From the NCBI RefSeq assembly GCF_021026345.1, contig NZ_JAJNCZ010000002.1, positions 248,001 through 312,000 on the forward strand: DNA of 64,000 nt, given 5' to 3'. This stretch comes from Rhizobium sp. GN54. GTDB lineage: Bacteria; Pseudomonadota; Alphaproteobacteria; Rhizobiales; Rhizobiaceae. The notes beneath the pieces are model-generated. The model saw only the letters and a program-made list of their open reading frames with translations. It was not told where the DNA came from and did no database searches. The stretch's first letter is position 1. Every line of letters begins with the position of its first letter. Of the stretch, positions 10,769 to 15,596 are shown piece by piece. The position numbers were made by a program, and so were the translations under genes.

Positions 10769-12850
10769 TCACTTTCGCAGCAGGCTGCTCAGCGGCTTCT
10801 TCAGCAATTGCTCCCGGATCGACCCTTCCTTGCGGATCTCGCCGCCGCCCTCGCCGAAGGCCGGGCGTTGCGGTTGCCGGGCCTGTGCGGCCCGGTCGCC
10901 CGCCTGCTCGTTCAATTCGCGCCGCAGCGCCTCGAAACGGTCATGCGCCGACAGGGGGCTCGGCCCCTCCTGCATGCGCGGCAGCATTTCCGGCCGGTAG
11001 GGCTCTATTCCTGCGGGACCGGCCGAGGGCGGATCGAGCGGGAGCTCGCGGGCGGATGGCTGCGGGTCGCTCCAGGCCCCGCCATCGTCGGCACCGGTGC
11101 GCGGGGCGTCGTATTCCGCCGCCTGGCGTTGCGCGAATTCGGTCTCGGCGCTCAGGACGGAATTCTGGAAGGCGGAGATGTCCGGGCCGGAGACGGAGCG
11201 CATGCGGCCGACGATGGAGCGCAGGTCGACGCTGTCGGGCGTATCGTCGCTGGCCTTGACGGTGATGCCGTTCGCCTTCGGCAGGCGGTTTTCCTGCACG
11301 CGGGTGAATTTCATGCGCATCGGCACGGTCACGGCCTCGCCGAAGGCGATCGCCTCGCCATTGCCGATCGAGGAGATGAAGCTCGTGGTTGACGACGACG
11401 AGTTGGGGATCGCGGAGCGGATGATCTCCTGGTCCTGGTCGTTGGCCAGTCGCATGGCGAAGACGGTCGAGCACTGCGACAGGATCGTCGGGTCGAGCTC
11501 GCCCGGGCGCTGTGTGATGATGCCGAGCGAGACGCCGTACTTCCGGCCTTCCTTGGCGATGCGGGCGATCGCCTGGCGGGTCGGCAGGAAGCCGAGCCCG
11601 GCATCGGCCGGAACGTAGCGGTGCGCTTCCTCGCAGACGACCAGCATGTGCACGCCGCCGCTGCTCCACAGCCCGATCTCGAAGGCCATGCGGCAGAGCA
11701 CGGAGGCGACGGAATTGACCACTTCGGAAGGAATGCCGGCGAGCTGGAAGGTGGTGATCGGCTTGCCTTCGCCGGGGATGCGGAAAATCCGCGCGATCGT
11801 GTCGAGGATGGTATCGGTGATCGTGTTCGAGGAGAACATGAAATGGTAGCGCGGGTCGTTGATCGCCGACATGACCTTGACCTTCAGCGAGCGAAGGTAG
11901 GGCTTTTCCGAGCGGCCCTCGAGCCGGCCGATGCGTTCGTCGACGAGCGCCAGCAGGTCGGCGATGCGGTAGGGCACCGGCGTGTCGGCGGTGATCGAGC
12001 TCTTCTCGTTGCCGCGGCGCATGAGGCTCGATTCGCCCGAGCCGCGGAAGGCCTTCTTCGCCTCCGGGATCAGGTCGCGCAAGACGTCCAGTTCCTCGGG
12101 CACGGCCGGGCGGCCGCGGAAGATGACTTCCGAGAACTCGTCCAGCCGGAACAGCCAGAAGGGCAGGTCGAGCGTATCCGTCTCGATGACGACGGAATGA
12201 TCGGGGAAGGCGGCGGCGAATTCGTTGTGCGGGTCGAGGATGAGGACGCGCAGCTTCGGATCAGCCTGGATCGCCTTGTGCAGAAGCAGCGTGACCGCGG
12301 TCGACTTGCCGACGCCGGTGGTGCCGACGATGGCGAAGTGCTTGGCCAGCATCGAGGGTACGTGGATCGTCGCGTCGAGCGTTTCGTCCTGCGTCAGCTT
12401 GCCGATCACGCAGACGTCGTTCAGCCCGGTGTCGTAGACGCGGGCGAGGTCGGCGGCGCGGATGCGGTGGGCGATCGCGCCGAGATAGGGATAGCGGGTG
12501 ATGCCGGCGGAGAATTCCTCGCGGCCGTCCGGGCCCATGTGGACCTCGCCCAGCAATTCCACCTCGACATGGAAGACGGTGTCGCCGCCGATGGACCAGG
12601 TCTGCTGGTCGGTGCCCATCGCATAGACGAGCGCCACGACCCGGTTGTCGCCGACGGAGATGGAGATCAGCCGGCCGACGGACCAGAGTTCGGTGAGCGC
12701 GGTTTCGCCGGCCTCGGCAACGGCGCTGATCGTCGCGCGCGATCCGCTGCAGGCGACGACCCGCCCGAGAAGGCGGTTGCCGGGTGCTTCCTCGTCGCGC
12801 CGTTCCTGTTCGCCGGCCGCCATCGAATGGTGAAAATCGGTGTTCCGCAA
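10769..12850 (-). CDS. HerA/DUF87-type ATP-binding protein
   Basis: This is a 693-residue ATPase of the HerA-FtsK superfamily. The N-terminal HAS-barrel-like region (LLGRVVACSGSRATISAVAE) precedes a Walker A motif FAIVGTTGVGKSTAVTLLLH near residue 180 and VLILDPHNEF. The Walker B/helicase segment HMLVVCEEAHRYVP lies near residue 410, followed by GRKYGVSLGIITQRPGELDP and a sensor arginine region. The C-terminal 150 residues are low-complexity, rich in Pro, Ala, Glu and Arg. HerA proteins are hexameric DNA translocases that often work with NurA nuclease; no nuclease gene is adjacent. A TTG at 12850 with GGAG nine bases before it is the likely start; an ATG at 12823 lacks such a site. Confidence 0.85.
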   Translation of the reverse strand: MRNTDFHHSMAAGEQERRDEEAPGNRLLGRVVACSGSRATISAVAEAGETALTELWSVGRLISISVGDNRVVALVYAMGTDQQTWSIGGDTVFHVEVELLGEVHMGPDGREEFSAGITRYPYLGAIAHRIRAADLARVYDTGLNDVCVIGKLTQDETLDATIHVPSMLAKHFAIVGTTGVGKSTAVTLLLHKAIQADPKLRVLILDPHNEFAAAFPDHSVVIETDTLDLPFWLFRLDEFSEVIFRGRPAVPEELDVLRDLIPEAKKAFRGSGESSLMRRGNEKSSITADTPVPYRIADLLALVDERIGRLEGRSEKPYLRSLKVKVMSAINDPRYHFMFSSNTITDTILDTIARIFRIPGEGKPITTFQLAGIPSEVVNSVASVLCRMAFEIGLWSSGGVHMLVVCEEAHRYVPADAGLGFLPTRQAIARIAKEGRKYGVSLGIITQRPGELDPTILSQCSTVFAMRLANDQDQEIIRSAIPNSSSSTTSFISSIGNGEAIAFGEAVTVPMRMKFTRVQENRLPKANGITVKASDDTPDSVDLRSIVGRMRSVSGPDISAFQNSVLSAETEFAQRQAAEYDAPRTGADDGGAWSDPQPSARELPLDPPSAGPAGIEPYRPEMLPRMQEGPSPLSAHDRFEALRRELNEQAGDRAAQARQPQRPAFGEGGGEIRKEGSIREQLLKKPLSSLLRK

Positions 12851-13010
12851 ATCGAAGCACTCCGGGTCCGTTTGCCGGGGGAATAACAGCAGTGGCTAAA
12901 CGATTAACAGCCGCCGCTTAACAATGCGTTTCGCGGCCGCACGCCCGCATGCGGCAATCCATCGCCGGCGGCCGCGGCCCAGCAGGAGAACGGGCGACGT
13001 GGATAACTGA

Positions 13011-13039
13011 TTGACGGCCTGTGCTTTAGCGTCTATCAA
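13011..13039 (+). promoter_or_regulatory. ilv leader promoter
   Basis: TTGACG at 13011-13016, a 17-nt spacer and TATCAA at 13034-13039 form a good vegetative promoter. The expected transcription start is 13046-13048, at or within two bases of the leader peptide ATG. The leader mRNA would therefore have essentially no 5' untranslated region. Confidence 0.65.
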
Positions 13040-13047
13040 TCCGCCCC

Positions 13048-13107
13048 ATGATTTCGAACGTCGCGAAGATTCTTGTGGTGGGATGGCGCATGGGCAAGGT
13101 GGTGTAA
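13048..13107 (+). CDS. ilv leader peptide (attenuation), likely leaderless
   Basis: A 19-codon reading frame encodes MISNVAKILVVGWRMGKVV, with eight branched-chain residues (Ile 2, Leu 1, Val 5) including the run Ile-Leu-Val-Val. It is placed between a promoter and an intrinsic terminator just before ilvB. There is no ribosome binding site before the ATG, and the promoter predicts a transcript starting at the ATG. Leaderless leader peptides of this kind are known for the rhizobial trp leader. GCGCATGGG (13086-13094) inside the frame is perfectly complementary to CCCATGCGC (13124-13132). A small hairpin GGTGG/CCACC (13098-13112) holds the stop codon in its loop. Stalling at scarce Ile, Leu or Val tRNA would mask the first arm. 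Confidence 0.78.
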   Translation: MISNVAKILVVGWRMGKVV

Positions 13108-13140
13108 CCACCGGGCGAAAGCTCCCATGCGCGGTAAGCA

Positions 13141-13163
13141 GGCTCCACACGGGGCCTTTTTTT
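13141..13163 (+). terminator. ilv attenuator terminator
   Basis: GGCTCC (13141-13146), loop ACAC and GGGGCC (13151-13156) form a six-pair stem with one G-U pair, followed directly by seven T residues. It sits 33 nt after the leader peptide stop and 60 nt before ilvB. It fits a transcription attenuator. I could not settle which upstream segment forms the competing antiterminator. Confidence 0.8.
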
Positions 13164-13222
13164 ATGCCCCCGATTTCGCTAATCACATTTTCAAAACACG
13201 AGCTACGGACGGAAACATTCCG

Positions 13223-15001
13223 ATGAGTGCAACTGAGAACCAGATGACGGGCGCCGAGATCGTCCTGCAGGCGCTGAAAGACAACGGCGTCCAACATATC
13301 TTCGGCTATCCGGGCGGCGCAGTCCTGCCGATCTATGACGAGATCTTCCAGCAGGAGGACATCCAGCACATCCTCGTTCGCCACGAGCAGGGGGCCGGCC
13401 ATGCGGCCGAGGGCTATGCGCGCTCCACCGGCAAGGTCGGCGTCATGCTGGTGACCTCGGGCCCCGGCGCCACCAATGCGGTGACGCCGCTTCAGGATGC
13501 GCTGATGGATTCCATCCCGCTCGTCTGCCTCTCCGGACAGGTTCCGACCTCGCTGATCGGCTCGGATGCGTTCCAGGAATGCGACACCGTCGGCATCACC
13601 CGGCCGTGCACCAAGCACAACTGGCTGGTCAAGGACGTCAACGATCTTGCGCGCGTCATCCACGAGGCCTTCCGCGTCGCCCAGAGCGGCCGGCCCGGCC
13701 CTGTTGTCGTCGACATCCCGAAGGATATCCAGTTCGCCACCGGCACCTATGTCGCCCCGTCCGCCGCGCCGGCGCAGCATGCCTACGCGCCGAAGGTCCA
13801 GGGGGACCTCGCGCGGATCAAGGAGGCGGTCGAGTTGATGCAGGGCGCGAAGCGGCCGGTCATCTATTCCGGCGGCGGCGTCGTCAATTCTGGGCCGGAA
13901 GCCTCGCACCTGTTGCGCGAACTGGTCGAGCTGACGGGCTTTCCGATCACCTCGACGCTGATGGGCCTCGGCGCCTATCCGGCGTCCGGCAAGAGCTGGC
14001 TCGGCATGCTCGGCATGCACGGCACCTACGAGGCGAACCTCGCGATGCACGATTGCGACGTCATGGTCTGCATCGGCGCCCGCTTCGACGACCGCATCAC
14101 CGGGCGGCTGAACGCGTTCTCGCCGAATTCCAAGAAGATCCACATCGACATCGATCCGTCCTCGATCAACAAGAACGTCCGCGTCGACATCCCGATCCTG
14201 GGCGACGTCGGCCGGGTCCTGGAGGACATGGTCCGACTCTGGCGCGCCACCTCGAAGCAGGCGGGCAAGGAGCATCTTTCCGACTGGTGGGCCTCGATCG
14301 CCCGGTGGCGGGCGCGCAACTCGCTGGCCTACAAGCCGAGCGACGACGTCATCATGCCGCAATACGCAATCCAGCGGCTCTACGAGCTGACCAAGCATCG
14401 CGACACCTACATCACCACCGAGGTCGGCCAGCACCAGATGTGGGCGGCGCAGTTCTTCGGCTTCGAGCAGCCCAACCGCTGGATGACCTCGGGCGGCCTC
14501 GGCACGATGGGCTACGGCCTGCCGGCAGCGCTCGGCGTGCAGATCGCCCATCCGGACGCGCTCGTCATCGACATTGCCGGCGACGCCTCGATCCAGATGT
14601 GCATCCAGGAGATGTCGGCTGCGATCCAGCACGACGCGCCGATCAAGATCTTCATCCTCAACAACCAGTACATGGGCATGGTGCGCCAGTGGCAGCAGCT
14701 GCTGCACGGCAACCGCCTGTCGCACTCCTATACCGAGGCGATGCCTGATTTCGTCAAGCTTGCCGAGGCCTATGGCGCCGTCGGCCTGCGCTGCGACAAG
14801 CCCGGCGATCTCGATGGGGCGATCGAGGAGATGATTTCGGTCAAGAAGCCGGTGATCTTCGATTGCCGCGTCGCCAACCTCGCCAACTGCTTCCCGATGA
14901 TCCCGTCCGGCAAGGCGCATAACGAGATGCTTCTGCCCGACGAGGCGACGGACGAGGCGGTCGCGAACGCGATCGACGCCAAGGGCCGGCAGCTGGTCTA
15001 G
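13223..15001 (+). CDS. ilvB: acetolactate synthase large subunit (ilvI/ilvB type)
   Basis: It condenses two pyruvates, or pyruvate and 2-ketobutyrate, in the first common step of valine, leucine and isoleucine synthesis, using thiamine diphosphate, Mg and FAD. The 592-residue protein has the N-terminal GYPGGAVLPIYDEIF and RHEQGAGHAAEGYARSTG, the latter carrying the catalytic Glu. The central FAD region contains GGVVNSGPEASHLLREL. The ThDP motif is GDASIQMCIQEMSAAIQ through LNNQYMGMVRQWQQLLHG. The ATG at 13223 follows GGACGGAAAC. Expression appears to be controlled by the leader peptide and attenuator just upstream. The small subunit gene follows after 22 nt. Confidence 0.97.
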   Translation: MSATENQMTGAEIVLQALKDNGVQHIFGYPGGAVLPIYDEIFQQEDIQHILVRHEQGAGHAAEGYARSTGKVGVMLVTSGPGATNAVTPLQDALMDSIPLVCLSGQVPTSLIGSDAFQECDTVGITRPCTKHNWLVKDVNDLARVIHEAFRVAQSGRPGPVVVDIPKDIQFATGTYVAPSAAPAQHAYAPKVQGDLARIKEAVELMQGAKRPVIYSGGGVVNSGPEASHLLRELVELTGFPITSTLMGLGAYPASGKSWLGMLGMHGTYEANLAMHDCDVMVCIGARFDDRITGRLNAFSPNSKKIHIDIDPSSINKNVRVDIPILGDVGRVLEDMVRLWRATSKQAGKEHLSDWWASIARWRARNSLAYKPSDDVIMPQYAIQRLYELTKHRDTYITTEVGQHQMWAAQFFGFEQPNRWMTSGGLGTMGYGLPAALGVQIAHPDALVIDIAGDASIQMCIQEMSAAIQHDAPIKIFILNNQYMGMVRQWQQLLHGNRLSHSYTEAMPDFVKLAEAYGAVGLRCDKPGDLDGAIEEMISVKKPVIFDCRVANLANCFPMIPSGKAHNEMLLPDEATDEAVANAIDAKGRQLV

Positions 15002-15023: not shown

Positions 15024-15596
15024 ATGAACGCACATCTTCAGCCGACCGGTTCGGCCTATTTCATCGCTCCCGAGACCCAGGTTTCGGAAAACCACACGCT
15101 TTCGGTGCTCGTCGACAACGAGCCGGGCGTGCTTGCCCGGGTCATCGGCCTGTTCTCCGGCCGCGGCTACAACATCGAGAGCCTGACGGTGTCGGAGACC
15201 GAGCACCAGGCGCACCTGTCGCGGATCACCATCGTCACCCGCGGCACGCCGCACGTGCTCGAGCAGATCAAGGCGCAGCTGGAACGGATCGTGCCGGTGC
15301 ACCGCGTCGTCGATCTGACCGTGCGCGCCAGGGACCTCGGCCACGAGCGGCCGCTGGAGCGCGAACTGGCGCTGGTGAAGGTGTCGGGCACCGGCGATCA
15401 CCGGGTCGAGGCGCTCAGGCTCGCCGACGCCTTCCGCGCCTCCGTCATCGACGCCAACACCGAGCACTTCGTCTTCGAGATCACCGGCAAGGTCTCGAAG
15501 ATCGATCAGTTCATCGCCATCATGAAGCCGCTCGGCCTGATCGAGGTCTGCCGCACCGGCATCGCCGCGATGAACCGCGGCCCGCAAGGGATGTAG
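15024..15596 (+). CDS. ilvN: acetolactate synthase small (regulatory) subunit
   Basis: This 190-residue regulatory partner of IlvB (also named ilvH) confers valine feedback and full activity. An N-terminal ACT domain (NHTLSVLVDNEPGVLARVIG, FSGRGYNIESLTVSETE, LSRITIV) is followed by the C-terminal domain LALVKVSGTGDHRVEALRLA and VFEITGKVSKIDQFIAIMKP, ending GLIEVCRTGIAAMNRGPQGM. The ATG at 15024 has GGAGGAGAGAAGACC before it. It is co-transcribed with ilvB. The next gene is on the other strand, 9 nt beyond the stop. Confidence 0.96.
   Translation: MNAHLQPTGSAYFIAPETQVSENHTLSVLVDNEPGVLARVIGLFSGRGYNIESLTVSETEHQAHLSRITIVTRGTPHVLEQIKAQLERIVPVHRVVDLTVRARDLGHERPLERELALVKVSGTGDHRVEALRLADAFRASVIDANTEHFVFEITGKVSKIDQFIAIMKPLGLIEVCRTGIAAMNRGPQGM

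Follow-up and report, generated by a model that had tools for sequence, protein, structure and literature searches.

The branched-chain ilvB leader is already in print as such, and the leader described here adds one more genome to a family that is already known. Corbino et al. 2005 (PMC1273637) refer to an alphaproteobacterial ilvB leader peptide as previously described, and a 2008 survey of small RNAs (sRNAs) in S. meliloti (PMC2573895) places an ilvIH cis-regulatory element before SMc01431; both cite Vitreschak et al. 2004. As relayed by these two papers, the ilvB/ilvIH leader of Vitreschak et al. consists of a leader peptide and an attenuator before the same genes as those examined here. 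The rnTrpL/trpL attenuator RNA of Sinorhizobium meliloti likewise carries a leaderless leader ORF at its 5' end, but serves another amino acid and another operon; action in trans and a function of the peptide are reported for it (PMC10117765, PMC7298713). The ilvBNC leader of Corynebacterium glutamicum is reported to encode a branched-chain amino acid leader peptide, to have its start site one nucleotide from the start codon, and to carry its control codons shortly before a 5' strand, there that of the antiterminator (PMC11857589). C. glutamicum belongs to another phylum, and the likeness is one of description, as it is for the Caulobacter ilv leader, in which tandem Ile and Val codons are described before the ilv operon (PMC4117421).

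A start-site study of S. meliloti reports 171 leaderless starts, all of them at AUG (PMC3616915). The main texts of that study and of a ribosome profiling study of the same species (PMC10117765) contain no word beginning with “ilv”, and a survey of open-licence literature, mostly by listing, turned up no description of the rhizobial ilvB leader as leaderless, nor of Atu_C8 as an ilvB leader. Atu_C8 (Rfam RF02502) is filed under the type “Gene; sRNA” and described as a Rhizobiales sRNA, and neither its name nor its description mentions ilvB or an ORF. The leader examined here scores far above the cut-off of its model. The name C8 is said to come from an Agrobacterium sRNA paper. The accession also appears in a published test set.

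Layout, structure and spread of the leader

The locus lies in a 64,000-nt stretch of the Rhizobium sp. GN54 genome, referred to below as the window, and comprises the following features.

13011–13039, + strand: promoter, TTGACG (13011–13016), 17-nt spacer, TATCAA (13034–13039); direct reading and the geometry of near relatives
13048–13107, + strand: leader ORF MISNVAKILVVGWRMGKVV, 19 codons plus TAA (13105–13107), probably leaderless; direct reading and relatives
13056–13173, + strand: match to Rfam RF02502 (Atu_C8), 108.9 bits against a cut-off of 50, E-value 1.5e-24; covariance model
13069–13080, + strand: control codons ATT CTT GTG GTG (Ile8 Leu9 Val10 Val11); direct reading and codon choice in 129 leaders
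13086–13094, + strand: helix arm 1, GCGCATGGG, within the ORF, beginning 5 nt past the last control codon; alignment and covariation
13098–13112, + strand: small hairpin across the stop codon, GGTGGT GTA ACCACC; folding, weaker support (83.7% of cells paired)
13113–13124, + strand: small hairpin GGGC GAAA GCTC, present in near relatives; folding and alignment by eye
13124–13132, + strand: helix arm 2, CCCATGCGC, whose first base can also close the small GAAA hairpin; alignment and covariation
13140–13163, + strand: intrinsic terminator of seven pairs, 4-nt loop and seven T; direct reading and terminator scan
13223–15001, + strand: ilvB, acetolactate synthase large subunit; Pfam TPP_enzyme N, M and C domains
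15024–15596, + strand: ilvN (ilvH), small subunit; named by recognition from sequence and position

A sequence-only reading of this stretch had proposed a promoter with a 17-nt spacer, a 19-codon frame with eight Ile, Leu or Val residues and two 9-base arms with perfect complementarity, and direct reading found all of these exact to the base: 8 of the 19 codons of the leader peptide specify Ile, Leu or Val, and GCGCATGGG (13086–13094) and CCCATGCGC (13124–13132) are perfectly complementary over 9 bp. The same reading had given the terminator six pairs and seven T; the seven T were found, and the scan raised the pairs to seven, with arms AGGCTCC (13140–13146) and GGGGCCT (13151–13157) and a T run at 13157–13163. 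From the T run to the ilvB ATG there are 59 nt, and the acetolactate synthase genes follow as ilvB and then ilvN, as for the rhizobial ilvB/ilvIH leader. A further small hairpin, CGGAAACATTCCG, lies beside the ilvB start codon in the window (13210–13222); among the stretches of relatives viewed by eye, it was otherwise seen only in Mycoplana dimorpha (L031).

Comparison was based on 150 fetched loci (L001–L150), among them those of Sinorhizobium saheli (L038) and Ensifer aridi (L040); two loci without ilvB were dropped. Of the 148 that remained, 138 have an ATG-started leader of 11–22 codons with a run of at least three Ile, Leu or Val codons; the 10 lost to this ATG and run filter all lie outside the set that we call near (Rhizobiaceae/Phyllobacteriaceae-type loci L001–L009 and L031–L111), and by eye, in a view that covered them except for L028, they include eight GTG-started leaders and the L136 leader, which has an ATG start, 15 codons and Ile-Phe-Val-Val. 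With L103 dropped as well, 137 leaders were obtained, of which 129 were distinct: 81 near and 48 distant, the latter from other families. L103, on a contig of a metagenome-assembled genome, has neither arm 2 nor the terminator 5' arm and keeps the promoter, ORF and T run, perhaps reflecting a true deletion or an assembly effect. For alignments, 41 (A1, mostly near) or 56 (A2) of 74 leaders under 88% identity were used, and a thinned set of 52 leaders under 80% identity served for permutation tests.

The leader of the window folds better than chance: its MFE is −46.1 kcal/mol, and its shuffles average −38.55 (z −2.26; 4 of 200 shuffles as good). From the late ORF to the start of the terminator, every one of the 129 leaders beats its own shuffles, with all z values below −1 and a mean of −4.27. 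In alignment A1, the arms, the stop-codon hairpin and the terminator together have 93.2% of their pair cells occupied by standard pairs; both sides have changed in 64 cells against 18.8 in shuffles and in 11 of 22 pairs against a shuffled mean of 6.9, and the covariation is 0.288 against 0.171, with none of 500 shuffles reaching any of the five measures. When the partners are slid by one to three columns, pairing falls to 27–56%. The two arms are paired in 97.8% of cells even though one of them is coding, and seven of their nine pairs have changed on both sides; the terminator is paired in 95.5% of cells, with one pair changed on both sides. Across the 41 leaders the arms covary strongly, and the peptide is conserved in relatives. 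The branched-chain peptide, the arms and the terminator are shared with the relatives fetched here and recur, all three, ahead of ilvB across families. This supports the sequence-only reading in placing a conserved branched-chain peptide with a terminator in front of ilvBN.

The window's own genome has a single RF02502 match. Of 199 sampled genomes in the same family, 193 carry one, 187 of them above the cut-off. The six family genomes that lack it measure 1.2–2.0 Mb, and some equally small genomes do carry it. In the order, 131 of 249 sampled genomes have a match (38 above the cut-off), and in the class at least 6 of 289 do, two of them above the cut-off, one being the window's own genome; a home-built model, R1, matches at least three of the same 289. 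Because at most 13 (R1) and 11 (RF02502) candidates per genome were scored in the class searches, absence in this sample means little. The surroundings were consistent: in 72 of the 75 matches fetched, ilvB begins less than 400 nt downstream on the same strand. The 75 comprise 70 of the 135 order matches and five more (the second copy of G437, both copies of G310 and of G393), with G423 and G426 (two matches each) and G223 left out. Among the 80 named loci kept by the IlvB search, the closest is that of Mycoplana dimorpha, at 93%. A catalogued sRNA family gains a concrete probable task, governing the synthesis of branched-chain amino acids, in bacteria that count nitrogen-fixing symbionts among them.

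Probable leaderless start and control codons

In the window, TATCAA (13034–13039) is followed directly by TCCGCCCC and the ATG at 13048, so that 8 nt separate the −10 hexamer from the start codon. This geometry is general among near relatives. TTGAC begins 35–38 nt ahead of the leader ATG in 85 of 85 distinct near leaders (for L082 the promoter counts use the inner ATG), where its chance occurrence in the seven positions examined is about 0.015 per leader. When the best-scoring −10 hexamer is chosen at spacers of 16–19 nt, all but one of the 84 distinct near promoters have a 17- or 18-nt spacer; 71 of the 84 place this hexamer 8 nt from the ATG, and the other 13 place it 7 nt away. Since these 7–8 nt leave space for about three untranslated bases at most, the transcript is predicted to start, probably, at the leader ATG or no further than about 3 nt from it. 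The leaderless start that the sequence-only reading had placed before ilvBN is supported by the promoter geometry of 84/84 distinct near promoters. A sigma-70 scan of the interval 12850–13300 reported no promoter, TTGACG-N17-TATCAA included; its rule requires the second hexamer to end in T, and TATCAA ends in A.

Shine-Dalgarno matches of at least 4 nt precede 2 of 85 near leaders, compared with 22 of 48 distant ones. In a control comparison, such a match precedes ilvB itself in only 7 of 43 near loci, so the lack of a long match alone says little in these genomes. The near loci, all of which pass the ATG-only filter, combine an AUG start with the lack of such a match in all but those 2 of 85 leaders, as leaderless mRNAs do. 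Only 12 of the 48 distant leaders have TTGAC at the near-type promoter position, and eight further distant leaders start, by eye, with GTG after a GGAG-like sequence. An independent hint comes from the Rfam model: in four loci, those of Agrobacterium pusense (L071), Rhizobium leguminosarum (L066), Ensifer aridi (L040) and Rhizobium giardinii (L037), its position 1 coincides with the G of the leader AUG, which is where an sRNA mapped from roughly that codon would be expected to begin. The window has a longer leader ORF, and there position 1 lies 8 nt into it, at 13056. A leaderless start is therefore well supported by comparison, and the start site itself is probably as predicted. It looks fixed in one lineage, and others often have Shine-Dalgarno or GTG starts instead, such that one conserved element could reveal the costs or gains of leaderless starts.

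Just before the leader −35 box, at about 1740–1775, a T-rich, UP-element-like stretch, TTTTTATTGC, was seen by eye in Rhizobium-type loci (L032–L036, L039, L041, L046, L051, L052, L054, L056, L057, L059, L060, L062, L066, L067 and L076), and none was seen in the window.

The distance between the control codons and the helix is nearly invariant: the end of the Ile/Leu/Val run lies exactly 5 nt from arm 1 (GCRY) in 121 of 129 leaders (78 of 81 near, 43 of 48 distant), although the N-terminus of the peptide varies. Arm 2 lies 6–8 nt from the 7-nt terminator arm in 101 of 129 leaders, and 7 nt from it in the window. The control codons themselves are mostly minor synonyms when the 129 leaders are compared with ilvB usage. 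In near leaders, control Leu is CUU or CUC in 97 of 97 cases and never CUG, which makes up 58% of Leu codons in ilvB; control Val is GUA in 30%, GUG in 63%, GUU in 7% and GUC in 0%, against 2, 25, 15 and 58% in ilvB; and AUU accounts for 56% of control Ile codons against 14% in ilvB. Distant leaders follow the same trend less strictly (Leu: CUU/CUC 88%, CUG 8%; Val: GUA 64%, GUC 11%). By wobble rules, these codons presumably point to tRNA-Leu(GAG) and tRNA-Val(UAC). A constraint on the RNA sequence itself may also cause the choice. Theory links the choice of codons in leaders to their sensitivity, according to one account (PMC1183508).

Proposed termination control and competing explanations

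The sequence-only reading had found the antiterminator not clear by eye, and computation agrees with it in finding no conserved one; the expectation of a recognisable antiterminator as part of the attenuator gains no support from shuffles, permutations or modelled ribosome states. Shuffled versions of the region from the stop codon to the terminator loop fold better than the region itself (mean z +0.55, n = 81; +1.02, n = 48), and none of the three segments start to arm 1, arm 1 to stop and stop to arm 2 pairs with either terminator arm in excess of shuffles. When each of the 129 leaders was compared with permuted partners, using its own terminator 5' arm with flank and loop, start to arm 1 (z +5.9) and stop to arm 2 (z +4.3) paired worse than with strangers, and arm 1 to stop paired with its own terminator 5' arm about as well as with strangers (z +1.2); the 52-leader set gave +2.3, +2.2 and +0.4, respectively. 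These z values ignore the relatedness of the leaders. The positive controls worked (terminator arms, z −12.4, or −9.2 in the 52-leader set; arm 1 with the arm 2 region, z −17.9). The 18 nt before arm 1 paired worse with the terminator 5' arm than with permuted arms (z +1.8 to +4.6), so the trinucleotide at the terminator/antiterminator boundary that marks the three-hairpin ilvBNC design was not detected; the C. glutamicum antiterminator is reported to share GCC with its terminator, and no such overlap was found in the rhizobial leaders tested. With no ribosome modelled, 126 of 129 leaders have the terminator in their MFE structure; at each of the other three ribosome positions all 129 have it, also with arm 1 covered or with the ribosome at the stop codon.

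Two further candidates for pairing were considered. By eye, GGA-NN-GC before arm 1 could pair with GCUCC, but it was dropped: its Gly codon is absent from several leaders and the permutation sign is wrong. Directly after the T run (13164–13168 in the window) stands an RU(U)GCC-like motif, with RU in 126 of 129 leaders, mostly as AUUGCC or AUGCC, and it is kept even in leaders with a different arm 1. Its pairing with arm 1 reaches z −2.95 over the 129 leaders (0 of 500), −1.33 in near and +0.39 in distant ones, and because the signal fades inside both sets, lineage is its likelier cause; with the flank of arm 1 (−18 to +4), z is −3.34 in the 48 distant (0 of 500) and +1.17 in the 81 near leaders. 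The motif is partly general, since RT follows 9 of 21 other terminator-like sites of the window's genome (two T-run patterns; the window's leader excluded).

With its parts, conservation, covariation, spacing and codon choice as described, the leader is, with good probability, a rhizobial member of the alphaproteobacterial ilvB leader family (RF02502) that works like a ribosome-mediated transcription attenuator of ilvBN. It has the leader ORF with an Ile-Leu-Val-Val run and the intrinsic terminator before a structural gene that belong to the trp type; the conserved antiterminator competing for a terminator arm was found in neither the 129-leader nor the 52-leader tests, and for that reason we describe the leader as working like an attenuator rather than file it as a proven member of the trp type. 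We infer the start site, a starvation response and its sign as follows. Transcription would start at or beside the leader ATG, and a ribosome would start on the 5' AUG without a Shine-Dalgarno sequence and translate the Ile, Leu and Val control run, whose last codon lies 5 nt ahead of arm 1. With ample charged tRNA, it would cross arm 1 to the stop codon and RNA polymerase would halt at the terminator. The product would be a leader RNA (Atu_C8) some 116 nt long, which, as the sequence-only reading suggested, could also act in trans. With branched-chain tRNAs uncharged, the ribosome would halt at the control run and read-through into ilvBN would rise. The helix of arms 1 and 2, located 7 nt ahead of the terminator, may act as a pause hairpin that detains RNA polymerase until the ribosome catches up. 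The scheme needs a means for a halted ribosome to weaken the terminator, and no conserved competing antiterminator was found. With the usual footprint, which we assume here, a ribosome halted at the first control codons leaves arm 1 free, unlike in the E. coli trp layout. The gap is testable: either a weak, fast structure escapes comparison, or attenuation works by the position of a helix.

Other explanations differ in what they ask of this gap. A classical attenuator with a weak, fast antiterminator is a possible reading that we consider somewhat unlikely. In the window and in Rhizobium, GGCU in the 5' arm of the terminator would then be engaged by AGCU or AGCC, the 3' strand of the small hairpin. 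This pairing would form while arm 1 is blocked and the terminator 3' arm is not yet made, with a short spacer pairing assisting, and it is indeed the MFE of the nascent downstream stretch (−4.4 kcal/mol in the window, −5.1 kcal/mol in Rhizobium leguminosarum L066) when the terminator 3' arm is absent and everything up to 12 nt past the stop is masked. Against the general trend of the permutations, stop to arm 2 gave hints in its favour with the terminator 3' arm (z −1.74, 18 of 500; −1.77, 24 of 500, in the 52-leader set) and, limited to the full set, with the terminator 5' core (z −1.45, 41 of 500). However, the 5' core hint vanishes in the 52-leader set (z +0.87), shuffles show no excess complementarity, and the structure is far less stable than the terminator (group means −12.1 and −12.5). 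A weak antiterminator specific to a lineage may nevertheless exist. It is doubtful, and in our estimation less probable than such a structure, that the helix anti-terminates by its position and not by competition for bases, forming near the terminator and lowering termination when a halted ribosome leaves arm 1 free, and melting when the ribosome runs to the stop codon. The exact 5 nt before arm 1 in 121/129 leaders, the 6–8 nt after arm 2 in 101/129, the failure to find a competing pairing and the C. glutamicum ilvBNC antiterminator, reported to share just three bases with its terminator, all fit this idea, but a non-overlapping helix has no shown way to block a terminator 6–8 nt off, and an untranslated leader would read through as well.

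More improbable still is that the element is chiefly an sRNA with its own terminator, with ilvB served by constant leakage or its own promoter and no control by starvation. The Rfam type and the retention of the terminator in every modelled ribosome state are in line with this; the control-codon run, the codon choice and the position before ilvB, all of them conserved, speak against it, as do the 59 nt between T run and ilvB ATG, which in the relatives viewed by eye look unconserved past the first bases. Returning to attenuation of ilvBN, we offer one specific version tentatively, as an unlikely but concrete form: without a competing antiterminator, the helix, measured off by two rulers, would relay the position of the ribosome to RNA polymerase by pausing or closeness, and the leader would read minor isoacceptors (CUY Leu, GUR Val), not bulk tRNAs.

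Copies before transporter genes and second ilvB genes

In three genomes from two families, a leader of the ilvB type stands before an MFS transporter gene instead of ilvB, and these are the other 3 of the 75 RF02502 matches fetched.

L010, 1501–1621, + strand: leader before an MFS gene; RF02502 match
L112, 501–620, + strand: leader before an MFS gene; RF02502 match
L163, about 1601–1721, − strand: leader before a Bcr/CflA-like MFS gene; RF02502 match

Two of the carriers belong to the same genus, and the third comes from another family. Pfam MFS_1 is matched by two of the three proteins, and that of L163 is closest to Bcr/CflA efflux transporters, below the cut-off of that family (173.4 against 200.9). 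With a leader RNA geared to branched-chain amino acids in front of its gene, such a transporter may move a related compound. A second, more distant ilvB with a leader copy of its own occurs in L111, L164 and L166, the genes being 72–77% identical to the ilvB of the window. Finally, a strong RF02502 match (L171, G547:C3:9228-9347; 98.8 bits) was seen in a genome classed outside the window's order, which may reflect transfer or misplacement.
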